Source: Frankia nepalensis | GTDB lineage: Bacteria > Actinomycetota > Actinomycetes > Frankiales > Frankiaceae | Length of the DNA stretch: 32,551 nt | Reading direction: 5' to 3' | Assembly (NCBI RefSeq): GCF_016786325.1 | Contig: NZ_JADWYU010000195.1 | Location: 1,267-33,817, forward strand | Part shown: piece after piece, positions 12,024 through 23,343 of the stretch | Layout of the letters: each line of letters opens with the position of its first letter | Numbering within the stretch: position 1 is the first letter of the stretch | Notes under the pieces: model-generated | What the model was told of the DNA's origin: nothing | Seen by the model: the letters and a program-made list of their open reading frames with translations, nothing else | Databases searched by the model: none | Translations under genes and position numbers: made by a program

Positions 12024-13004
12024 CTACGCCGCCACTTCACGGGGCCCCAGGTCTGCGAGCAGACGCTTCGCGAGACGCCGAACGGCAAGATCATCGTCGC
12101 GCAGCGACGCCCAGGCGGCAGGGACCGGCTCGCCGTCCAGCCACGCGTCGACCGCCGCGCGCAGGGCATCAGCCAGGCCGAGGCCCGCCTTCAGCTCCCG
12201 CAGCATGCCCACGAGGATCATGTGGGCGCCGTCGGTCAGGTCCAGCTCGTCGTCCCACCCGTCACGGGCCACCGCAGGGACGTCGTGCTCCGGCAGCGGA
12301 CAGCAGGTCTGCGTGGTCAGCGGACCGAGCAGGCACTCGTAGAGCCATTGCGCCCCCGCGAACGCCCGCACACCGGCGAGACAGGATTCGATGTCGCGCC
12401 GTAGCTCCCGCTGTGCCCGCCGCGACCCAACGACGCGGCCCGCGCCGTCCCACGCGTTCTTGCGGTCCGTGAGCGCGTCGACGGGCCACTGGCCGCCGCT
12501 CACGCCCGGCGTTCCGACGTACCCCAGCAGGAACCGGAAGACGGCCGTCAGCCACGGATCCTCGAAGTAAGCGGCAATCCGCCCTACAGTTCCGTCCTTG
12601 CGGGTCGGCTTGGCCACCGCGCCGCGGTCCTTGCGCCCGGAGCGCCTGAGATCTGCCAGGGTGGACCGGGCGACCGTGGTCAGGTAGGCGGCGTAGTTCG
12701 AGAAGTTGTCGCCGACCTCGGGGAACCGGACGTGCATCGCCGCATGGGCCCGGATCCACACATCCATGCACAGGTCGACACACCCGGTGCTCTCACAGGT
12801 CGCCCAGGCCCCACCTGGCGGCTGGGCCGCCGCGAGCGGCCCGCGGCCGGCGCACACCCCGGCGCCCTGCGCGGCGTGCAGCGCGTCGCGCGCCTGGCGG
12901 ATCACGCGCCAGACCAGCATGGTGCTCTCCGTCAGGCAGGCCGACGACTGGCAGAAGGATGATGTAGCCGGCGGCACCACGCAGAGATGTTGAGCAGCAG
13001 ACAC
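12024..13004 (-). CDS. Protein with sigma-70 region-2-like segment, function unknown
   Basis: No full family match is recognised for this 326-residue protein. Residues about 75-135 (DLCMDVWIRAHAAM, NFSNYAAYLTTVARSTLADLRRSGR, then a basic stretch) look like region 2 of a sigma-70/ECF factor, where an acidic helix is followed by YLxxVARxxxxDxxR. A clear region 4 helix-turn-helix is not seen; the rest is helical and includes a Cys-containing stretch (TTQTCCPLPEHD). The GTG start at 13004 is behind GGAGAG with 4 bp spacing. It is divergent from the Cys-rich ORF and cyclase-like gene, so it may control the island. It may equally be an RNA polymerase-binding regulator that is not a true sigma factor, or simply a helical protein with chance similarity. 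Confidence 0.55.
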   Translation of the reverse strand: MSAAQHLCVVPPATSSFCQSSACLTESTMLVWRVIRQARDALHAAQGAGVCAGRGPLAAAQPPGGAWATCESTGCVDLCMDVWIRAHAAMHVRFPEVGDNFSNYAAYLTTVARSTLADLRRSGRKDRGAVAKPTRKDGTVGRIAAYFEDPWLTAVFRFLLGYVGTPGVSGGQWPVDALTDRKNAWDGAGRVVGSRRAQRELRRDIESCLAGVRAFAGAQWLYECLLGPLTTQTCCPLPEHDVPAVARDGWDDELDLTDGAHMILVGMLRELKAGLGLADALRAAVDAWLDGEPVPAAWASLRDDDLAVRRLAKRLLADLGPREVAA

Positions 13005-13173: not shown

Positions 13174-13290
13174 ATGTGCGGCACGTGCAACTGTTCCGCA
13201 TCGTGTCGGACGCCGCGCTGTGCTGTCAAGAGAGTGCGACCTGCGGACGGGGCAGCCCCTGGACGGCGGCGGCTGTCCGTTAGTGGGTGA
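13174..13290 (+). CDS. 38-residue Cys-rich small protein (candidate)
   Basis: An ATG at 13174 lies exactly 7 nt behind GGAGGA (13161-13166), one of the best ribosome sites in the window, and opens a 38-codon frame. The peptide begins MCGTCNCSASCRTPRC, with Cys at 2, 5, 7, 11 and 16 in CxxCxCxxxCxxxxC spacing, and ends in a basic Arg/Lys/Gly/Pro-rich tail. It is followed 71 bp later by the cyclase-like gene, so the two may be co-transcribed. It could be a metal- or redox-binding small protein, a RiPP-like precursor, or a translated leader that controls the next gene. Short Cys-rich frames also arise by chance in GC-rich DNA, so the ribosome site is the main support. Confidence 0.45.
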   Translation: MCGTCNCSASCRTPRCAVKRVRPADGAAPGRRRLSVSG

Positions 13291-13361
13291 CGAGGGCGCC
13301 CCGCCCCACCATCACCAGCAGCTGGCCGCCGGCACGGGCGGTCTTGGGGAAAGGACAAGCC

Positions 13362-14573
13362 ATGGTCACCCAGCTTCGCGAAGCCTTCGCTGACCCGCAG
13401 TCCCGAGAGGCTCGAACCCTGCTGTACATCTCTCAGGTCGAGTCGACGTCGGCGAAGGAGCGGCAGCCCGAGGCTGGGTGGCTGCCCGCCCTGGGCTGGT
13501 GCTACGACACGGTGACCGCGATCGCGATGGCCGCCGACGAGAGCGCGGAGATCAAATACCTGGGCGACGCCATCATGATCTCGTTCGACAGCGACCACGC
13601 CACCGACGCAGTGAACGTGGCGATCCAGGTCCAGGAGGCGATCAATGACGCCCACCAGGGCCGCACTGGAGCGAAGGGCACGATCGACTTCAGCTGCAGC
13701 ACCGGGATCAGCACTGGCTCCGTGGTCTCGTTCGTCACGCCGACCGGCAGCCGGGACTTCGTCGGCACCGTCGTCGACAAGGCCAGAGGGCTGTGCGAGG
13801 CGGCCTCGCCCAAGGCGGTCTTCGTCGATCGGGCGACGGCCTCGGCCGCGAACGTGATGCGGATCCGCAGCAGGATCGGTGATGCGCTGGGTCGTGCGCC
13901 GGAGCAGTACCAGGGCGACGTTCAGCGCGCGCCGCTGAAGGGTTTCGACCAGCCCGTCGAGTACTACGAGATCCTCTGGGACCAGCAGCTGTATGGGTTC
14001 AAGTCGGAGGCGGTGACCCGCAGCACCGACCGGATGCGCACCGCCGCCGCGCCGGTCGCGGCCGGTCCGACCGGTGGCCGGGTCTTCGGCGCCCAACCGG
14101 GTGACCGGGGCCACAGTGCGCCCGAAGAGCGGCACGTCGGCGAGGTGACCTGCTGGCGGCGGGAGTCGAACTTCGGATTCGTGCGGGACAAGCGCACCGG
14201 CGAGGACTTCTACTTCCGTTCGAATCATCTTGTCTACCCGGAGGACGCGGGATCGAGCCTCAACGTCGGCGCCACCGTCGCGTTCGTGGCTTCCGGCACT
14301 GGCGATACCGCCCGTAAGCGCCAGGCCGTGGCGATGCTGGTGGTGGGTGACTACGCGGAGGGCACGCTGAAGCTTCCGGACGCCAAGGCACACGGCTGGC
14401 TGCGCGTCCAGGACGGCCTCGGCAACGGCCACCACGTGTTCACCCCGCGCCGTGCGGTCGAACGCTATGCGCCGGGCACGCTGCTGAGCTTCAAGGTGGG
14501 GACCAACGACCGCGGTGGCCTCGCCGAGGAGATCGAGTTGCCGGACGAGGAGGACACGGCGAAGGCGGCGTAA
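13362..14573 (+). CDS. Degenerate class III nucleotide-cyclase domain fused to two cold-shock-type OB folds
   Basis: The protein has 403 residues. The N-terminal half (about 15-207) is a class III adenylate/guanylate cyclase homology domain: IKYLGDAIMISF, GISTGSVVS, DFVGTVVDKARGLCEAA and the C-terminal PLKGFDQPVEYYEIL are all in order. The first metal-binding Asp position (LLYISQVEST) is Ser24, not Asp; the second, Asp69, and Lys65 are kept. The usual VNxAARL transition-state motif reads VDKARGL, so the Asn is Asp139 and the Arg is Gly143. It is therefore probably not a normal cyclase and may bind nucleotides instead. After a disordered linker comes a cold-shock domain (about 258-325) with RNP1-like NFGFVRD and RNP2-like DFYFRS, then a second OB-like repeat (about 329-395, HGWLRVQD, HVFTP). 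These suggest single-stranded RNA/DNA binding. The ATG at 13362 is behind GGGGAAAGGA. A 15-bp hairpin follows the stop. Confidence 0.75.
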   Translation: MVTQLREAFADPQSREARTLLYISQVESTSAKERQPEAGWLPALGWCYDTVTAIAMAADESAEIKYLGDAIMISFDSDHATDAVNVAIQVQEAINDAHQGRTGAKGTIDFSCSTGISTGSVVSFVTPTGSRDFVGTVVDKARGLCEAASPKAVFVDRATASAANVMRIRSRIGDALGRAPEQYQGDVQRAPLKGFDQPVEYYEILWDQQLYGFKSEAVTRSTDRMRTAAAPVAAGPTGGRVFGAQPGDRGHSAPEERHVGEVTCWRRESNFGFVRDKRTGEDFYFRSNHLVYPEDAGSSLNVGATVAFVASGTGDTARKRQAVAMLVVGDYAEGTLKLPDAKAHGWLRVQDGLGNGHHVFTPRRAVERYAPGTLLSFKVGTNDRGGLAEEIELPDEEDTAKAA

Positions 14574-14583
14574 GCCCGACCCG

Positions 14584-14618
14584 GCCGGCCGGCGCCCGCT
14601 GCACGGGCGTCGGCCGGC
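14584..14618 (+). terminator. 15-bp GC-rich hairpin after the cyclase-like gene
   Basis: Bases 14584-14598 pair with 14604-14618, with a single G-U pair and a 5-nt loop CTGCA, 10 bases past the stop codon. There is no U-run. In high-GC actinobacteria such hairpins can act as terminators or 3' protectors. It would separate the cyclase transcript from the small RNA that starts 70 bp later. Confidence 0.65.
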
Positions 14619-14655
14619 GCTCCGCCCGGAGATCGAGGAAATCGGGACACCGCTG

Positions 14656-14684
14656 TTGAGTCCGAAGGTTCGATCGTCTATACT
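14656..14684 (+). promoter_or_regulatory. Sigma-70-type promoter for the small RNA/NYN gene
   Basis: The -35 element TTGAGT (14656-14661) and -10 element TATACT (14679-14684) are separated by exactly 17 nt, close to the HrdB-type consensus TTGACN/TANNNT. It lies in a locally A/T-richer stretch. The expected start site is about 14691, the first base of the structured RNA. Confidence 0.75.
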
Positions 14685-14690
14685 GTGGTT

Positions 14691-14751
14691 GCCCCCGCCG
14701 CTAGCGCCAGACCTGGGAAATCCAGACCTTATGGCCACCGGCGGGGTTTTT
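14691..14751 (+). ncRNA. Small structured RNA or attenuated leader upstream of the NYN gene
   Basis: From the predicted start, the transcript can fold at once. Stem 1 pairs CCCCGCCG (14693-14700) with CGGCGGGG (14739-14746), 8 bp. Stem 2 pairs GCCA (14706-14709) with TGGC (14732-14735). Stem 3 pairs CTGG (14713-14716) with CCAG (14722-14725) around the GAAAT loop. Stem 1 is directly followed by TTTTT (14747-14751), making an intrinsic terminator with a long, structured loop. A discrete RNA of about 61 nt would result, or the NYN gene would be controlled by attenuation, since its start codon is only 20-35 bp further. No known RNA family is recognised. Confidence 0.6.
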
Positions 14752-14771
14752 AATGTCATCACTGTCGGAAG

Positions 14772-15455
14772 GTGTACGGGGACGTGCCGACGGGATCTTT
14801 GGTGCTGGTAGATGGGTGGAATCACTATCTAGCCGCGATGCGGTGTTTCGGTTACAAGATGGCTGTCCAGTTTCCCATCGATCGGCTGGCCGCCAGCCTG
14901 ACCACGCAGACCAAGGCCGAGGCCGTCATCGACGTTGCCGTGGTCATGGCCTTGCCTAACCGGCACGACCCAGCCGAGCAGCCGGAGTTCTGGACCTGGC
15001 GCAGCAGGCTCAACCGCCTCCACAACTATGGCGTCCGACACGAGAAGGCACGCTTCCGCTACGAGTCCCTGAAATGTTCGGCCTGCGAACATGAACTGGC
15101 CCGCGTGGTGGAGTGCGAGCGCTGTGCAACGCCCCATCCACTGGCTGGTCGTCGCAAGGAGAAGGGCGCCGATATCAAAATCGCCGCGCTCGCGCTGGAC
15201 GGTGCCTGGCTGGCGAGCTACTCCACGTTGATCCTGCTTTCGCAGGACTCGGACTTCGGCCCGCTGGTCCAGCAGCTCAAGGAGGTCCACCGGCGGCAGG
15301 ATCGTTGGTACGACCTGTACTCGGCCTACCCGGTCTGCTCCCAGGCTGGCCACGAACACCGGTCGGTACCAGGAACGAAGCCTCTCGAGATCACGGAAGA
15401 GGACTACGCCATGCTGGCCAGCCGCCCGCTGCGGGACCCCCGAGCGGCCGGGTAG
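14772..15455 (+). CDS. NYN-domain (PIN-like) RNase with inserted zinc ribbon
   Basis: The 227-residue protein has the NYN fold of PIN-like, metal-dependent endoribonucleases. Acidic active-site residues are all present: Asp14 with Asn17 in LVDGWNHY, Asp134 in KEKGADIKIA, and Asp159/Asp161 in LLSQDSDFGPL. A CxxC-x9-CxxC zinc ribbon (Cys102, 105, 115, 118) lies between the second and third motif, an RNA- or protein-binding insert that many NYN proteins lack. GTG 14772 touches the purine-rich GGAAGG, so GTG 14784, 11 nt behind it, may be the true start; it leaves the motifs intact. The gene is downstream of the terminator-like small RNA, so read-through or attenuation could set its expression. 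Its stop codon is one base from the stop of the convergent HEPN gene. RNase activity is inferred from the motifs. Confidence 0.8.
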   Translation: MYGDVPTGSLVLVDGWNHYLAAMRCFGYKMAVQFPIDRLAASLTTQTKAEAVIDVAVVMALPNRHDPAEQPEFWTWRSRLNRLHNYGVRHEKARFRYESLKCSACEHELARVVECERCATPHPLAGRRKEKGADIKIAALALDGAWLASYSTLILLSQDSDFGPLVQQLKEVHRRQDRWYDLYSAYPVCSQAGHEHRSVPGTKPLEITEEDYAMLASRPLRDPRAAG

Positions 15456-15456
15456 G

Positions 15457-17010
15457 TCACCGCAACGCTGGACGTGGGCGGCCCGCCGCCGGGATGGAAA
15501 GCCATTCCAGGATCTCTCGGCACGCCGTCCGGAAATCCTCCATCTCCCGTGGGGTCTTCGCCGCTCGGCGGTTGTGCGCCATCGGCGTGCGGACGCTGGC
15601 CACCAACTCGATGCGCTCGGCCCACTCCGGGAGCTCGCGGCCGAAGAACGGCTCCACGTAAACCCAATGCAGCGTCATGATCTCCAACAGTTCTTTCGGG
15701 AAGGCCCACTCCAGGAACGTGTCGCCGGCCGCCGGCTCGCCGAGCCCGACGCGGGCCTGCTTCCGCCGCTTCTCACATTCGGCGCCGATGCGTGGCTGAG
15801 CCTCGCTCACCCTGATTTCCCAGTCGTCGCCGTAGGCCGCACGTAACGCGTCGGCCAGCGCGTCGCGCAGGCCGGTCTCGGTTTTCTGCCACAGCGGCCA
15901 GTCATCCACCTTCCGCTCCAGCAGGGTCAGGTACCGTTGAAACGTCTCCGAGAAAGCAGCCCAGCCCGACGAAGTTCTACGGATGAGCCCTTCCTTTTCC
16001 AGCCGGTCCGCGTCCGCCGGCCCGACGGTCACGCGGGGCCCGAAGAGCACCTCCAACAGCGTGTTCAGCCGGCCCTCGTCCCGCAGCAACTCCAGCATCT
16101 GCTCGTGGTGGTGCACGGTCACCGACGCGCAGGCGCGCTCGGCCGCGCTGAAAAGGGCATCCAGCTCAGCGGGCTCCGGTGAGTGGTCCGCGAGAGTGTC
16201 GTGCAGCTGGGACAACCAGGCGGACGCAAGGAATGGCTGGCCGCCCGTCTCCCGCGACAGCCACGCGAACGCCGCCGCGCGAAATTCTTCGCTCTCGTGC
16301 GGAGACCGCGCGATCAGCGCCGTGAGCTCTGTCGGCCGGAAACAGCCTGGCTGGACCGGTACCCCGAAGATCTGGTGCAGGTTGGAGACCTCCGGCGTCG
16401 AACGCACGATGATGTCCCCGATCTCGCGCCGCGACGTCACGATCAGAGCGACACGGGTCTTGTCGTCGTAGGCGATCGTGCGCAGCAGCTCGAACGGCGC
16501 TGCGCGGCGGAAGAGCTTGCCCGCGGCGTCAAACTCGTCGAGCACCGCGACCACCTGGTAGCCGCAGTAGCGGACCTCGCGAAGGTATTCGCCCAGGTAG
16601 ATGGCCAGGTCGTCCCATTCCACGACGCCGTCAAGCCGATCGAAGCTCGGCTTGACACGGTCGGCATCCGCCTCGGCGTTTCGCTCCAGCCAGCGCTGGA
16701 CGCTGCGCGCGAGCTCGCGGAACAGGGACTGTTCGGTTTCCCGCCCCATGACCGTGATCCACAGCGGCAGGAAGGTCAACCCGCGCGGGTTGCGCCCCAC
16801 GGCATACCGGTCCAGCAGCTCGCGCGCCAAGCTCGACTTGCCAACCCGCGGCGGTCCGACGATCGAGCTGGACGCCGAGCCGTAGGACTGGAAGACCCGG
16901 CTGCGGATCGACCGGATCTGGTCCGTCCGACCGACGAAGTCCGGGCCCGTCACCTGGTTTCCGTACGAGGCATACGGGTTCGTCATGACGATGCTGTCGT
17001 CCCCGGTCAT
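15457..17010 (-). CDS. AAA-family ATPase with C-terminal Swt1-like HEPN domain
   Basis: The protein is 517 residues from ATG 17010. The N-terminus has NPYASYGNQVTGPDFVGR, the entry signature of AAA/STAND-like NTPases, then Walker A GPPRVGKSS (52-60) and Walker B VVAVLDEF (153-160), with a sensor-like VALIVTSRRE. A helical and winged-helix-like region follows. The last 85 residues (FPKELLEIMTLHWVYVEPFFG, then VRTPMAHNRR) match the Swt1-type HEPN domain, with the catalytic R-x4-H motif at Arg474 and His479. HEPN domains cut RNA in many toxin and anti-phage systems, so the likely design is an NTPase switch that unleashes an RNase. ATG 17010 lies 5 bp behind the upstream stop with GGAG about 10 nt away; ATG 17040, overlapping that stop, has no ribosome site. 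It forms an operon with the Sm-like/AAA gene. Confidence 0.8.
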   Translation of the reverse strand: MTGDDSIVMTNPYASYGNQVTGPDFVGRTDQIRSIRSRVFQSYGSASSSIVGPPRVGKSSLARELLDRYAVGRNPRGLTFLPLWITVMGRETEQSLFRELARSVQRWLERNAEADADRVKPSFDRLDGVVEWDDLAIYLGEYLREVRYCGYQVVAVLDEFDAAGKLFRRAAPFELLRTIAYDDKTRVALIVTSRREIGDIIVRSTPEVSNLHQIFGVPVQPGCFRPTELTALIARSPHESEEFRAAAFAWLSRETGGQPFLASAWLSQLHDTLADHSPEPAELDALFSAAERACASVTVHHHEQMLELLRDEGRLNTLLEVLFGPRVTVGPADADRLEKEGLIRRTSSGWAAFSETFQRYLTLLERKVDDWPLWQKTETGLRDALADALRAAYGDDWEIRVSEAQPRIGAECEKRRKQARVGLGEPAAGDTFLEWAFPKELLEIMTLHWVYVEPFFGRELPEWAERIELVASVRTPMAHNRRAAKTPREMEDFRTACREILEWLSIPAAGRPRPALR

Positions 17011-17015
17011 GTCGG

Positions 17016-20000
17016 TCAGCTCCACTGGTGCTGCAGCCATTCGCTGAACAGGCCGACCTGGAGGCGGAATCGGTTGCTGGACAGCCGGGTCACCACCTCC
17101 CGGTTCGCCAGGTCGGCGAGCACCCGGTCAGCCTGGGGATGTGAGGTCTGGTCAGCCTCGTGGTACATCTTGGAGCCGGAGTCCTTCCGGGTGGCCCGCA
17201 GCACCTCCATCACCAGCTCGTCGCTGATGTCGGTCACCTCGGCGTCGCCGGGCGTCAGCAGGTTGTCGAACTCTTTGATCGGCAGGTTACGGACGAGGCC
17301 GTCCGCGACGGCGTCGACGTCGGCCGGACCGATCGCCGGCGCCCGCACGTCCTCGGAGTTCATGTGGTTGACGAGCGCATGGCAGAACAGCTGGATGTAG
17401 TAGGCGCTGTGGCCGGTCAACTGGAGAACGCGAGTGTCCGCGTCACCGCGGTAGCGCGAGCCGCCGTCGGGCTGCAGGATCGGGTCCCGGATCAGTTCCA
17501 GGGCTGACGTCGGGTCCAGATAGGAGACCCGCTCCCGCTTGATGACCTGGAACTCGTTCGGGAACTCCTCGATGAACCGCGGCATGAGGTCGTTACCGAC
17601 CAGCGCGCAGCGGAAGTGGCCCCGATCGAGGATCGCCTTCCAGCCTTTCATGAAGTCAGGCGGCACGTTGCCGGTGCGGATCCACTTGTGCAGCAGGCTA
17701 AACTCGTCTAGCAGCAGCACGAGGCGGCTGTGGGCGAACGGCGCCGTACGCCGCATCCAGACCTCGACCAGCTCGCGCATGTACTCATTGAACCGCTGCT
17801 GCGGCGCGATGCGGATCTGGTCCAGATCTGGCCGTGGCGGCGCGCTGACACCATGTTCTTCGGCCAGTATCCGCAACCGGAACTGGAAGGCGTCGGCGAT
17901 GCCGTGCAGGAAGTCAGCCAGCGAGCGGTTGGCGGTCATGTTGCCGACGCTGTCGGTAAGCCACCCGCAGTCGTAGCTGGCTGCCACATGGGGCAGCTCG
18001 ATCGCGTTCTGCAGGTGGTAGAGCACAGACGACTTCCCAGCCCGCTTCTGGCCGTACATGACCACGCTGCCGTGCCCGCTGCCGGTGACCGTGGCCAGCA
18101 CGTCGGCGATCAGCCGGCCCCGGCCCTTGAACATCTCCGGGTCCTCGACCTTGACGCCGGCGATGTACGGGTTGGGAATCTCACGCCACTCCTCGTCCGC
18201 GTGCAGGCGGATCGACTTCGCGTCCACGGCGGCGGTCTTCTGCTCACCCGAGCGCAGGGTAAAGCTGACCTCACAGGCAAGCGTCATCAGCTCCTGCTCG
18301 ACCGCCCGCCGGCTCGCGACCAGCTTGATCTGACAGGTCTTCGACTCGTCAGCGGCGATGGACGCGGCGACGGGAACAGGCTGGGGCTCGGACTCGTAGT
18401 CATCACTCGGCAGGACGGTGAGCGCGACGTTGCTGACCGGGCTCGCGTCGGGCGAGTGGTTCGACACCCGTAGCTGCACGTTGACCTTCGCGCCGTCCGG
18501 CAGGTAGCGGTCGACGACCAGCTCTACCTTGAGGTTCTCCGGCGCGGCGGCGGTGTCGTAGGCGTCGAAGTGCTCAGTGAGGTTCTTCTCCAGCGCGGTC
18601 AGATACGGGTGGAGATATTGCAGCGAGAAGACGGTCGGCGCCTTCTCGATCTCGTATCGATGCTCCTGGATCGTATGAGTGACGCTGCCGGCGAGCCGCT
18701 CCCGCTCGACATACTTGATCGGGGCCGCGTACTGACGCAACTGGTCGACCACCTTGGCGCAGTTCTTGAGCCGGTTGACGTCCGTCAGCGGGGCGTAGCC
18801 GTCCATCTGTTTGGCGATCACGTCGAGCGCCCGGGTGTGCCGGTCGATCGCGGTCAGCACCGGGACGCCGGCCAGCACACTCAGATCGCGGTAGGACTCC
18901 TGCCTGGCGCGGTCCTGTTGGGCGGCGGCGCCCCAGGCCCGGGTGAAGGTCTCCTGGTTCTCGACGGGCATCGGCGTGAGCAGGTATTTCTGCAACGCGG
19001 TCTGAAACAGCTCACGGGTGTCCCGGTCCGCCCAGATCCGCCCGATCAGCCGAGTCTTGATCTTCCCGACCGTCGGAAGGAGCGTGCTGAGGACCGGGAT
19101 GGCTAGCTGCTTGGTGGCCATCACGCTCTGCAGGAGCGGTTCCAGGTGCAGCAGCTTCCCGCTTTCCAGCAGCTGGTCGTCGCCTCGGACGAACGACCGG
19201 ACCAGCTGGCGCAGCTTGACGTCGACTAGTTCGCCCCACTCCGGCCTGACGTTAATCGCTTCCAGGTAGTAGGTACGGATAACATCTGCGTGCTGCGCCT
19301 CCACCACGCAGTGGTCACCCATCGCGGCGGCGAAGTTCTGCAGCCGTGACCGGAACCGGCCGTCGGTGATACCGAGGTCCTGCAGAATTCGCGCGGCCGA
19401 CAGGTTGTAGTCGGCCCGCTCTCGCGGGATCTTCGTGCCCGACCGGCCACCGGGCCCCTGCAGCATGTTGTCCAGGTGCCTGATGTCGTTCAGCGTGACA
19501 TTGTTGGAGCGGACCTTGTCCGGCGGGACGCCGCGGTACTCGCAGCGCTCCAGATGAAACAGCAGCAGCGGGCTGAGGCCGCCGCTCTCCGCGGCCTCCT
19601 CCTGCGCGGTTGCCTCGACCTTCGAGAACATGCCGGTCGCGATGACGTGATCCAGCTGGTAGATGAGCTCGGTGACGGCCGGCTGGTCGGGGTTGCGCCG
19701 CAGCTCGGCGGCGAGAAACTCCTTCGCCTCGTCGTGCCGGTAGGTCTTGGTGAGCGCTCTGTTGATGCGCCGCACCAGCACCAGCCGCTCGTCCGGCGGC
19801 GAGGCCTCGGACAGCATCTCGTGCAGCACGTCCAGCGCCTCGCTCCACCGCCCGGCGTGCTCCAGGATGGTGCTGCGGGTCTGTAGCCAGTCCCGCAGTT
19901 CCTGGCGTGTCGTGAACCGCGAGCGGTAGCGCTCCAGGACGGTGAGCGCGGTTGCGCGGCTCTGCTGCTTGTTGCCGAGCACCAGGGCGATCTTCCGGAC

Positions 20001-21536
20001 GTCCATGGCGGACAGCGCGTCGTCCTCGGCCATCGCGGCGAGGGTGCGCAGCACACCGTCGGTGTCGCCCCGCCGCGCCGCGGCCTCCGCCCGGGACATC
20101 AACAAGCTGGGGTGCATGGTCAGGTCGCGCTTGTGCGGCGAGATGCTGACAGGCGCGATCGTCGCCGGGCTCGGGGACGGCACCGTGTGCGCGGTCCGGG
20201 CACCCGTGACCCGGCGCTGCAGGTCCCATGTGATCGGATACCCGGGTGCCAGCGCCTGCAGCCGTTTGAGGGCCGACTCGGCCGAGGCGAGGTCTCTGCG
20301 GGCCAGGAAGCCACGAATCTCGTCGGCGATCACGGCGACGTCCGGATCCTCGACGCCCGACCGGGCCTCCGGCGGCCTGGACGGCATAGCAAGCGGCGTG
20401 GCGGGAGCCGCCGCAGGTACGCCATCCGCCGCCATCATTGCTGTATCCGGCCTTGGCGGCAGGTTAGGAGTGGCCGCACCGGTGCCGTCGGAAGCCCCGT
20501 GAACGATCACGGCACCGCCAGCGACGGCGTCAGCGGCGATCATGAATGCCGCCGCGTCCAGGCTCGGCAGATTCCATTGATCGGCCGGGAAGCCCGCCAG
20601 CTTCGAGCGATCCGCGCATAGCAGCCCGCTGACCAGGACCGCGAGCCTCGCCTCGGTGGCTGGCCACCGGGCTGCCGTACGCACGAGGCCCGCGAGCTCG
20701 GCGGCTCCCTCGCCCTGGACGGCGACCAGCGCCGTCAGCGCCCGCAGCGCGACGTCGTCGGGAGCGGTGCCCTCGTGAACGCAGCCAGCCAGGGTCGCGG
20801 GCGCGAGCTCGCGCTCACCCGCCAGCCGCTGGGCCATGGCGAGGTCGCGGCAGGACGGGCCGTCCTCGAGCACGTCGGCGGCATCGGCGAACAGGTCCAG
20901 CGCGCGTTCACGCTCGCCGAGCGGCCAGGCCAGCTGGGCGGCTGTCCGGAGCAGCTCCGGCGCGTCATACTGGTCGGCGATCGCCTCCAGGCGCGTGATG
21001 CAGTCGAGAACGCGGTCGGCATCGCGCATCTTGAGCGCGTACTGATAGCGGTTACGCACGACGTCCAGCTCGCTGATGAGCCGGAGGTGTATGGCCTCGT
21101 CACGGCCGGCGGGGGTCTCGAAGGCCGGGATGGAGACGTCCAGGGAGGTTCTGGCGGCCGCCGCCCGAAGCTCTGCGAGCGCGGTTTCGAGCGCCACCGG
21201 CAGATCGGGCGGTGTGATCGAGGCCGGGGGTGGTGCGGCTGGGGCTGGAGGCAGCGATGGCCAAGCGACCGGGGCTGTGTCGGCCGTGACCGGGGCTGCC
21301 GTCAAGGGCACCGGGCTTTCGCGACTCGGAGCCAGTTCCGCGGCCGGCCGCAGGTCGCGGCGTTGGACCATCTCGATGGCCTCCGCGACGAGAATGATCT
21401 CGCCGTCCACGGCGTCAATCACCAGGCATTCGTCGTCGATCTCGCGCAGGACGCCTTCTATAGATGACCCCGCGTCGAGCCGGACGACGATCGTGCTGCC
21501 TATCGGCACTCGCGCCTTGATGGGCCCTAGTCGCAT
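17016..21536 (-). CDS. Giant Sm-like / TPR / beta-sandwich / AAA protein with C-terminal winged helix
   Basis: This 1506-residue protein is the first gene of a two-gene operon. Residues about 10-60 (STIVVRLDAGSSIEGVLREIDDECLVIDA) look like a small Sm/Hfq-like beta barrel. A Pro/Ala linker leads to long helical TPR-like repeats (about 120-280 and 470-950). A beta-sandwich (about 990-1090, VELVVDRYLPDGAKVNVQLRV) precedes NPYIAGVKVEDPEMFKGR and the AAA domain with Walker A GQKRAGKSS (1162-1170) and Walker B LVLLLDEF (about 1272-1279). A winged helix ends it (about 1435-1506). The same NPYxxG/FxGR entry motif is found in the downstream HEPN ATPase, so the two AAA cores are related and may form a mixed ring or a sensor-effector pair. 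Function is unknown; the Sm-like domain suggests RNA sensing, which is inference. The start has CGGGG right against ATG 21536; an internal start is possible but would remove the Sm-like domain. Confidence 0.75.
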   Translation of the reverse strand: MRLGPIKARVPIGSTIVVRLDAGSSIEGVLREIDDECLVIDAVDGEIILVAEAIEMVQRRDLRPAAELAPSRESPVPLTAAPVTADTAPVAWPSLPPAPAAPPPASITPPDLPVALETALAELRAAAARTSLDVSIPAFETPAGRDEAIHLRLISELDVVRNRYQYALKMRDADRVLDCITRLEAIADQYDAPELLRTAAQLAWPLGERERALDLFADAADVLEDGPSCRDLAMAQRLAGERELAPATLAGCVHEGTAPDDVALRALTALVAVQGEGAAELAGLVRTAARWPATEARLAVLVSGLLCADRSKLAGFPADQWNLPSLDAAAFMIAADAVAGGAVIVHGASDGTGAATPNLPPRPDTAMMAADGVPAAAPATPLAMPSRPPEARSGVEDPDVAVIADEIRGFLARRDLASAESALKRLQALAPGYPITWDLQRRVTGARTAHTVPSPSPATIAPVSISPHKRDLTMHPSLLMSRAEAAARRGDTDGVLRTLAAMAEDDALSAMDVRKIALVLGNKQQSRATALTVLERYRSRFTTRQELRDWLQTRSTILEHAGRWSEALDVLHEMLSEASPPDERLVLVRRINRALTKTYRHDEAKEFLAAELRRNPDQPAVTELIYQLDHVIATGMFSKVEATAQEEAAESGGLSPLLLFHLERCEYRGVPPDKVRSNNVTLNDIRHLDNMLQGPGGRSGTKIPRERADYNLSAARILQDLGITDGRFRSRLQNFAAAMGDHCVVEAQHADVIRTYYLEAINVRPEWGELVDVKLRQLVRSFVRGDDQLLESGKLLHLEPLLQSVMATKQLAIPVLSTLLPTVGKIKTRLIGRIWADRDTRELFQTALQKYLLTPMPVENQETFTRAWGAAAQQDRARQESYRDLSVLAGVPVLTAIDRHTRALDVIAKQMDGYAPLTDVNRLKNCAKVVDQLRQYAAPIKYVERERLAGSVTHTIQEHRYEIEKAPTVFSLQYLHPYLTALEKNLTEHFDAYDTAAAPENLKVELVVDRYLPDGAKVNVQLRVSNHSPDASPVSNVALTVLPSDDYESEPQPVPVAASIAADESKTCQIKLVASRRAVEQELMTLACEVSFTLRSGEQKTAAVDAKSIRLHADEEWREIPNPYIAGVKVEDPEMFKGRGRLIADVLATVTGSGHGSVVMYGQKRAGKSSVLYHLQNAIELPHVAASYDCGWLTDSVGNMTANRSLADFLHGIADAFQFRLRILAEEHGVSAPPRPDLDQIRIAPQQRFNEYMRELVEVWMRRTAPFAHSRLVLLLDEFSLLHKWIRTGNVPPDFMKGWKAILDRGHFRCALVGNDLMPRFIEEFPNEFQVIKRERVSYLDPTSALELIRDPILQPDGGSRYRGDADTRVLQLTGHSAYYIQLFCHALVNHMNSEDVRAPAIGPADVDAVADGLVRNLPIKEFDNLLTPGDAEVTDISDELVMEVLRATRKDSGSKMYHEADQTSHPQADRVLADLANREVVTRLSSNRFRLQVGLFSEWLQHQWS

Positions 21537-21813: not shown

Positions 21814-23343
21814 ATGGCTGCGGAGACGGGCCCTCCCGCGGGCGAGAGCTGGGATTTCTTCCTCTCTTATGCGCACGCCGACCGCGGCTGGGCTGAATGG
21901 GTAGCCTGGCAGCTGGAGAGCGGCGGGTACCGGGTGCTGGTCCCGGCCTGGGACGCCGTCGCCGGCTCCAACTGGTTCTTCCAGATGGACCGAGGCCTCG
22001 AGGTGGCCGGCAGGACCGTCGCGCTGCTGTCGCACGCATACCTCCAGTCGGTCTACGGAAAGCAGGAATGGCAGTCCGCGCGGGCCGCGGACCCGATGGG
22101 CCTCGCCCGGCGGCTGCTTCCCGTTCGGGTCGAGGACTGCCCCAGGCCCGGCCTGCTCAGCACCGTCGTGAGCATCGACCTGTTCGGCCTGGCCGCGCAG
22201 GACGCTCACCAGGCCCTGATGAACGGGGTCCGCGGCGCGCTAGAGGGCCGCGGCAAACCGGCCACGGAACCCGGTTTCCCGGGGCATGCCGCGACGGCGC
22301 CAGTTGCGTCGCCTCGACCGGCCAACTCGGGCGCCCTGGCCGCGGCGGCAGGCGGCGCAGCTCGGGCGCGACACCCGCTGGGCGTGACCAACGCGCGCGG
22401 CGGGGAGGTGCGGGCCGCCGCGTGGCGCGCCGACGGCCAGCTACTCACGACCGGCGGCCTCGACGGTGCCACACGCCTGTGGGACGTGACCGACCCGGCG
22501 ACGCCACTGGAAGTTGGCGAGAGGCTCCGCGGCCACACCGCCGCCGTCTGCCTGGCCGCCTTCTCGCCGGACGGACAGACATTGATCACGGGAGCGGTCG
22601 ACCACACTCTTGCGACGTGGGCCGTCGCCGCACCGTCCGCGCCTCGGCTCATCAGCCGGACGGCACTGGGCAGTGGGAGGCTCGAGGCCCGCTCAATGGC
22701 TCTGTCGCCCGACGGAGTCATTCTGGCCGCCGCGGGGTCGGACCAGGTCGCGCGGCTGTGGGACCTGACCGTGCCCAAGAAGCCTCGCCAGCTGGCGGCA
22801 CTCACCGGACACACCGCAGCGGTCTGGTCGGTGGCATTCTCGGCCGACGGCCGGACGCTCGCCACGGTCAGCGGGCCACGACTTCGACTCTGGGCCGTCG
22901 AGGATCCGAGTCGCGTCGTCGGCGAGGCGGGCGCGCCCGGTGGCGCGGACCTCTGCTCGGTCACGTTCGCGTCCAACGGGCTGGTAGCGGCCGGAAGTTT
23001 CGACCGTTCCGTCTACGTGTGGGACACGGCCGACCCGACTCGGCCTCGACCGGTCGAGCCTGGGCTCCCTTCCCATCTGGCCGTCGTCTGGTCACTCGCG
23101 TTCTCACCCGACGGCCGGACGCTCGTGGCCACCGATAGCAAGTTGGCCCGGTTCTGGGACATCTCCGAGCCGTCCCGGCCTGAGGAGATCGGCGAGCTTC
23201 TCAGCGAACACGGGAGGCGCGTCACCTGCCTGGCATTCGCCGCTCGTGGAAATCTTCTCGCCACCGGCGCGGAGGACGGAATCGCTCGCTTGTGGCAGCC
23301 GCCGGACGATTCCGTGACCTTCACGTCGCCGGGCCAGAGATGA
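21814..23343 (+). CDS. TIR domain-WD40 seven-bladed propeller protein
   Basis: The 509-residue protein starts with a bacterial TIR domain (about 12-150): SWDFFLSYAHADRGWAEWVAWQLE, and Glu85 in SVYGKQEWQ, the position of the catalytic Glu of NAD-cleaving TIRs. After a Pro/Ala linker there are seven WD40 repeats (about 200-500), each with an F/LSPDG or similar turn and a RLWD-type end. That is enough for one closed propeller, which usually binds a protein partner. TIR-WD40 proteins are common in Frankia and Streptomyces and are thought to act in signalling or immunity, with NAD+ depletion as the end effect. It is divergent from the AAA operon. There is no cyclic-nucleotide-binding domain, so it is not a plain Pycsar-type effector. 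The ribosome site is weak. Confidence 0.85.
   Translation: MAAETGPPAGESWDFFLSYAHADRGWAEWVAWQLESGGYRVLVPAWDAVAGSNWFFQMDRGLEVAGRTVALLSHAYLQSVYGKQEWQSARAADPMGLARRLLPVRVEDCPRPGLLSTVVSIDLFGLAAQDAHQALMNGVRGALEGRGKPATEPGFPGHAATAPVASPRPANSGALAAAAGGAARARHPLGVTNARGGEVRAAAWRADGQLLTTGGLDGATRLWDVTDPATPLEVGERLRGHTAAVCLAAFSPDGQTLITGAVDHTLATWAVAAPSAPRLISRTALGSGRLEARSMALSPDGVILAAAGSDQVARLWDLTVPKKPRQLAALTGHTAAVWSVAFSADGRTLATVSGPRLRLWAVEDPSRVVGEAGAPGGADLCSVTFASNGLVAAGSFDRSVYVWDTADPTRPRPVEPGLPSHLAVVWSLAFSPDGRTLVATDSKLARFWDISEPSRPEEIGELLSEHGRRVTCLAFAARGNLLATGAEDGIARLWQPPDDSVTFTSPGQR

Follow-up and report, generated by a model that had tools for sequence, protein, structure and literature searches.

The window, the whole stretch of 32,551 nt analysed here (Frankia nepalensis, assembly GCF_016786325.1, contig NZ_JADWYU010000195.1, positions 1,267-33,817, forward strand; host genome of 10.7 Mb), carries a cassette that is rare and looks like phage defence. 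It consists, in order, of a gene for an unknown protein, a Pycsar-like cyclase with cold-shock domains, a predicted small RNA, an NYN-domain RNase, an AAA-HEPN protein and a TPR-AAA protein. This order is identical in all three species compared, F. nepalensis, Dactylosporangium roseum and Actinoplanes utahensis, and all five genes are syntenic.

The gene for the unknown protein (326 aa; 12024-13004, minus strand) is divergent to the cyclase gene. It has counterparts at the same position in both relatives with 46-47% identity, and no Pfam, PADLOC or NCBIfam match. At the other end of the cassette, the gene of an AAA ATPase with a HEPN_Swt1-like domain (15457-17040, minus strand) lies tail to tail with the NYN gene, beside that of a large TPR-AAA protein (17016-21536, minus strand). 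Both were assigned by Pfam and are syntenic in both relatives, and the D. roseum copy of the AAA-HEPN protein exceeds the HEPN_Swt1 Pfam cut-off. PADLOC gave no match to the AAA-HEPN protein and only HamB (E 0.0015) for the TPR-AAA protein. A TIR-WD40 gene (21814-23343, plus strand) adjoins the cassette, and its counterpart is absent from the 19-20 kb around the cassettes of both relatives.

The cyclase gene (13362-14573, plus strand; the ORF runs from 13287 and is conserved from near 13362) encodes a class III cyclase domain of Pycsar-like type, followed C-terminally by two cold-shock domains. Its profile matches solved cyclases and, at two places, cold-shock proteins, with Pfam matches below cut-off, and PADLOC matches it to PycC with E 3.1e-5 in the window and 6.1e-7 in D. 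roseum. Both relatives read FIDQVGST where the window copy reads YISQVEST. The D of this motif, which we take to be the first metal-binding Asp of the cyclase, is lost in the window copy, and this loss may leave the window cyclase catalytically dead; the copies of the relatives look intact. Cold-shock domains are included by PMC7159879 among the effector domains of other conflict systems.

The NYN RNase (14784-15455, plus strand; Pfam NYN E 4.2e-8) contains a four-Cys zinc-ribbon-like insert, for which zinc-ribbon Pfam matches stayed below cut-off. Alignment with the relatives places its start at GTG 14784, a start at 14772 being probably wrong, and a putative ribosome-binding site, GGAAGG, lies at 14767-14772. 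Three Asp residues, D14, D134 and D159 (numbered from the 14772 start), are invariant in the three species; matched by eye to the three catalytic Asp that PMC11346440 describes for NYN RNases, they appear to be an intact catalytic set. PADLOC matches the RNase best to the candidate defence family HEC-09 (E 8.4e-8), and no ToxN-type match was found with Pfam, PADLOC or NCBIfam. By sequence, the NYN profile matched no solved structure. The AlphaFold model is poor (mean pLDDT 60.9), and Foldseek with this model returned nothing at E <= 0.001; its hit of rank nine, at E 0.03, is VPA0982 (2qip), which PMC11346440 names beside NYN proteins.

The predicted small RNA with its promoter and terminator

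Between the cyclase and NYN genes, the original prediction had placed a TTGAGT-17 nt-TATACT promoter and, directly behind it, an RNA of about 61 nt with three stacked stems that ends in an 8-bp G/C stem plus five T. Both elements are borne out, the RNA by sequence, fold and comparison. The promoter (14656-14684, plus strand), with -35 TTGAGT at 14656-14661, a 17-nt spacer and -10 TATACT at 14679-14684, is the sole sigma-70-like site on either strand of 13200-15600, where shuffles lead to an expectation of 0.1. The same scan listed no such promoter at the loci of D. roseum and A. utahensis. At all three loci, a TANNNT -10 hexamer (TATACT, TAAACT and TAGGCT) ends exactly 5 nt 5' of the conserved sequence TGCCCCCG, and in the relatives this hexamer is the only TANNNT within the 311 and 341 nt examined. 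The window has two further TANNNT, TACTGT at 14681 and TAATGT at 14751. The latter is a candidate -10 of a separate NYN promoter, and the relatives have no TANNNT at that place.

The RNA (14690-14751, plus strand; about 61 nt, with a predicted start at about 14690-14691) takes the same predicted fold at the three loci. P1, an 8-bp G/C stem (14693-14700 with 14739-14746; pair probabilities 0.9-1.0), is also the stem of the intrinsic terminator and is followed by a U-tract of five T (14747-14751), which is T-rich in both relatives too. P2 comprises 4 bp (14706-14709 with 14732-14735) plus a lone pair, 14704/14736, and the apical hairpin P3 likewise has 4 bp (14713-14716 with 14722-14725; CUGG/CCAG, loop GAAAU). 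The terminator scan of the window, with its loop limit of 8, does not list this terminator.

Folding energy of single sequences gives marginal support to the RNA. The z-score is -1.14 for 14685-14756 (27 of 200 shuffles as stable) and -2.39 for 14688-14751 (3 of 200), and the RNAs of the relatives reach -1.82 (7 of 200) and -1.75 (12 of 200). When each apical piece was shuffled 2000 times by mononucleotides, 6.1, 6.7 and 7.5% of the shuffles folded equally well. In a search of the window with Rfam 15, the gathering score was reached by one tRNA only; over the RNA no family came to threshold, and the window and D. roseum each gave a single match below it, to other families. A leader peptide inside the RNA was rejected, because neither relative has the single ATG found in the window RNA. 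A program-called ORF (14515-14811, plus strand) overlaps the RNA.

Directly 3' of the cyclase stop codon lies a hairpin without U-tract (14574-14655, plus strand; -51.4 kcal/mol, z -2.75), which probably forms the end of the cyclase transcript. Each relative also has a hairpin there, unrelated in sequence (z -1.27 and -3.06). As the cyclase gene is followed by a hairpin of its own at all three loci, the RNA appears to be a unit apart. The order of promoter, RNA, terminator and RNase gene is also common to the three loci, with a gap from U-tract to NYN start of 32 nt in the window and of about 21-24 nt in D. roseum and A. utahensis, and no sigma-70-like promoter is listed in the interval from RNA to NYN in any of the three. 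Given the -10 hexamer at each locus, the hairpin at the cyclase end and the lack of any TANNNT 3' of the U-tract in the relatives, NYN would most simply be read from the promoter of the RNA through its terminator.

Conservation and linkage of the RNA

A search of genome contigs from 84,980 species, with one genome per species, gave 49 pattern matches and among them two NYN relatives, those of D. roseum and A. utahensis, both 59% identical to the window protein. Both relatives have the same RNA between cyclase gene and NYN, and the conserved stems that the original prediction had expected in orthologous loci are present in the two. The alignment of the three RNAs has 45 invariant columns of 73, and 18 of 19 letters are invariant in the 5' core UGCCCCCGYCGCUAGCGCC. 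Invariant letters fall within stems P1 and P2 and the short internal loop, CUAG, whereas the 5' tail, the bulge between P2 and P3 and the apical loop differ among the species. Three-way identity is 0.64 in the RNA compared with 0.21 at 14574-14640, 0.37 at 14641-14683 (promoter included) and 0.25 at 14752-14783; the cyclase and NYN genes have 0.70 and 0.57, and some 40-nt coding stretches 0.85-0.93. The RNA is conserved like coding sequence, and not above it.

Pair lists of the three species, lined up by hand, indicate how the stems changed. P1 is altered at a single pair, from C-G to U-G, in A. utahensis. One pair of P2 is A-U, G-U or G-C across the species, another alternates between G-C and G-U, and a fifth P2 pair exists in the relatives but not in the window. 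Two pairs of P3 changed on both sides (G-C to C-G and G-C to U-A), which gives CUCU/AGAG in the relatives, closed by GNRA-type loops, GCGA or GCAA. Covariation thus consists of three pairs changed on both sides, from three loci of which two are close to each other, that is, of few independent events. A covariance model built from the two relatives only detects the copy in the window with a score of 45.9 bits (E 6.4e-9), in a register that makes two window pairs non-standard, and a sequence-only model also finds it, at 34.5 bits (E 5.5e-10); the E-values are rough, as calibrations were short. Hence, sequence alone already identifies the window copy, and structure adds about 11 bits. The RNA is beyond chance by comparison, and by energy only marginally.

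Searches in further genomes scored only the best first-look candidates of each genome (8 for NYN and 14 for the RNA in Micromonosporaceae, 4 for the cyclase family in 396 genomes, 7 for NYN in 397 genomes), so that weak copies may be missed in these counts. Among 354 Micromonosporaceae genomes, the covariance model found the RNA in two, the same two that have a full-length NYN relative; 99 genomes had matched in the NYN search, and the 97 with partial-profile matches (E 4.4e-8 or weaker) were dropped before counting. The window's own genome contains one copy of the RNA. Further NYN searches gave matches in 1 of 396, 1 of 58 and 1 of 397 genomes, every one an already known locus. The cyclase family was found in 1 of 35 genomes of the window's order (E 1e-25) and in 3 of 396 genomes, own genome included. 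It also occurs in four plasmid records at about 33% identity, two of which carry the same mycobacterial protein, and in one more genome of the phylum (L051). That the search did not find it in the other 34 genomes of the order would fit a mobile, rare cassette.

Four other cyclase-family loci (L045/L050, probably the same plasmid, L046, L048 and L051) have no significant RNA match, with best E-values of 0.2, 0.38 and 0.27; L050 and L051 cover about 1.5 kb on each side, and L047, a second copy of the L046 locus, was left out. Co-occurrence of RNA and NYN, together with cyclase loci that do without the RNA, indicates that the RNA is associated with NYN, and not with the cyclase/cold-shock gene, within the genomes searched. 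No NYN relatives were found in viral contigs, plasmids or phages, and plasmids gave no RNA match. Five matches in viral contigs to a 17-base core were rejected as RNA copies, their flanks showing by eye no such RNA.

Proposed function of the RNA and its alternatives

We propose that RNA and RNase form one unit with the logic of type III toxin-antitoxin systems: the RNA would hold NYN back in trans, and its terminator would limit the NYN mRNA in cis. We give this reading a probability of just under one half (0.48). According to this model, one promoter would produce the structured RNA of about 61 nt in excess. The terminator stem, P1 with its U-tract, would stop most polymerases and leak a little, and the read-through transcript would be the NYN mRNA. 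The RNase would be bound by the RNA through the invariant stem sequence and the CUAG internal loop and so kept inactive, and infection or cassette signalling would upset the balance and release it. The layout shared with type III and AbiF/RCd22 loci, the apparently intact Asp residues and the HEC-09 match favour an RNA that restrains NYN. Read-through together with direct inhibition of a protein by RNA is described for AbiF/RCd22 and type III systems (PMC12373285, PMC5086642). Moreover, an invariant core with variable apical loop, bulge and 5' tail is as expected of a protein-bound RNA, and its retention in two distantly related bacteria suggests that the RNA may hold the enzyme in check. From the list of functions in the original prediction, an antitoxin or attenuator of NYN fits best, since RNA, terminator and NYN belong to a single unit, with the RNA tied to the presence of NYN and not to that of the cold-shock gene. 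The evidence disfavours a guide.

Several observations weigh against this RNA-RNase unit. The window copy is already found by the sequence-only model and covariation amounts to three pairs; the tandem repeats that define type III antitoxins are lacking; neither relative has a hit in the sigma-70 scan, and TAATGT at 14751 could be a -10 of NYN itself. The invariant stems could also serve the terminator alone. In addition, the CRISPR-associated NYN enzyme treated in PMC11346440 is a non-specific RNase and a proposed crRNA trimmer. A wider version of the proposal, which we put forward tentatively and rate as possible rather than probable, is that the non-repeated RNA would act as both terminator and antitoxin of NYN, that the pair would be the effector arm of this rare actinobacterial cassette, and that cyclase, AAA-HEPN and TPR-AAA proteins would sense infection and release NYN.

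The RNA might instead act only in cis, as the 5' leader of NYN, with no role in trans. A protein would then open the terminator, for instance NYN itself or the cold-shock cyclase, the upstream protein that the original prediction had suggested as antiterminator. The leader probably does contain the terminator, no sigma-70-like promoter being listed between RNA and NYN, and the upstream protein does have cold-shock domains; we nevertheless consider a purely cis-acting role unlikely. Only a few nt precede P1, which leaves no 5' strand to pair as antiterminator, and no competing antiterminator fold was found in the three species among the nested folds computed. The best folds without P1 have -12.5, -15.6 and -18.1 kcal/mol compared with -27.5, -27.0 and -24.8, so that loss of P1 costs 15.0, 11.4 and 6.7 kcal/mol. 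A classical two-conformer attenuator is therefore disfavoured. The 3' part of the relatives' RNA can still form a shorter hairpin, and this would terminate rather than antiterminate. Furthermore, the stem sequence is invariant beyond the needs of a terminator, and four other cold-shock cyclase loci do without the RNA.

Linkage to NYN would also fit an RNA cofactor or guide, which would form an active complex with NYN (or the cold-shock cyclase) and direct or activate cleavage, and so would the conservation of the internal loop CUAG and the GNRA-like shape of the apical loops. We regard this role as improbable: CUAG is the only invariant unpaired stretch and is too short for a usual seed, and the remaining invariant letters are in P1 and P2, with apical loop, bulge and 5' tail differing between species. 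Slightly less probable again is an ordinary promoter with an intrinsic terminator, whose RNA has no function itself. It would agree with the marginal folding energy (z -1.14) and with the terminator stem holding most of the invariant letters, but the conservation is well above that of the neighbouring spacers, P2 and P3 have two-sided changes, and structure adds to the model score. A tRNA-Glu mimic that would bait a tRNA-cutting NYN RNase is very improbable, as the likeness of the 5' core to the 5' end of the window's tRNA-Glu, seen by eye, is at chance level (in a comparison with 111 distinct tRNAs, 212, 294 and 181 of 300 shuffles reach at least the same score). A relic of integration at tRNA-Glu was rejected likewise: none of the tRNA's 13-mers recurs in the window, and ARAGORN detects no tRNA in the loci L002, L003, L036 and L037.

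Relation to known systems

Type III loci (ToxIN, CptIN, TenpIN and AbiQ) are described in PMC5086642 as one promoter, a non-coding RNA, a Rho-independent terminator and a downstream RNase gene. The cassette shares this layout, and a single promoter with a Rho-independent terminator between RNA and putative toxin gene is found here at the level of sequence. However, the window RNA is single and non-repeated, with a body that includes the terminator stem, and the RNase is of the NYN (PIN-like) kind, whereas that of type III loci belongs to the ToxN family. Tandem repeats are absent from the three RNAs, in which the longest internal direct repeats are 8, 7 and 5 nt, and no ToxN/AbiQ, CptN or TenpN toxin was found. 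The RNA-NYN unit, which has neither tandem repeats nor a ToxN toxin, is thus not a type III member.

In the AbiF/RCd22 system, as PMC12373285 presents it, a toxic protein in a defence setting is likewise preceded by a structured RNA that has a promoter of its own and a read-through terminator. RCd22, in contrast, contains the abiF motif twice and goes with a protein of the Abi_2 family; the abiF RNA motif (RF03085) was not found in our RNA, and the downstream protein is NYN and not of the Abi_2 family. AvcID resembles the present unit as a case of type III logic with an unrelated toxin, which there is a deoxycytidylate deaminase paired with AvcI RNA. The CRISPR-associated NYN RNase described in PMC11346440 has the NYN domain with three catalytic Asp in common with ours. 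It differs from the present case, where a Pfam scan of six window proteins found no CRISPR family above cut-off and the RNase has its own RNA upstream.

Among the best matches listed from open-licence papers, we found no description of such an RNA-NYN pair. Type III pairs as described consist of tandem-repeat RNAs and ToxN-like RNases. If our proposal is true, an NYN (PIN-like) RNase under one small, non-repeated RNA widens the range of RNA-controlled toxins, and offers a minimal testable unit of 0.8 kb that is tied to a Pycsar-like cyclase.

The upstream gene, which is PycC-like, may relate the cassette to Pycsar. The window departs from Pycsar in its cold-shock domains, in the loss of one metal-binding Asp and in its effectors, with no PycTM or PycTIR match among the six window proteins scanned, TIR-WD40 neighbour included. 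A Streptomyces plasmid (L048:5998-7714) encodes a relative of the window cyclase that is of Pycsar type and likewise has cold-shock domains at its C terminus, and there PycTM (Pfam E 1.4e-9) comes immediately after it.
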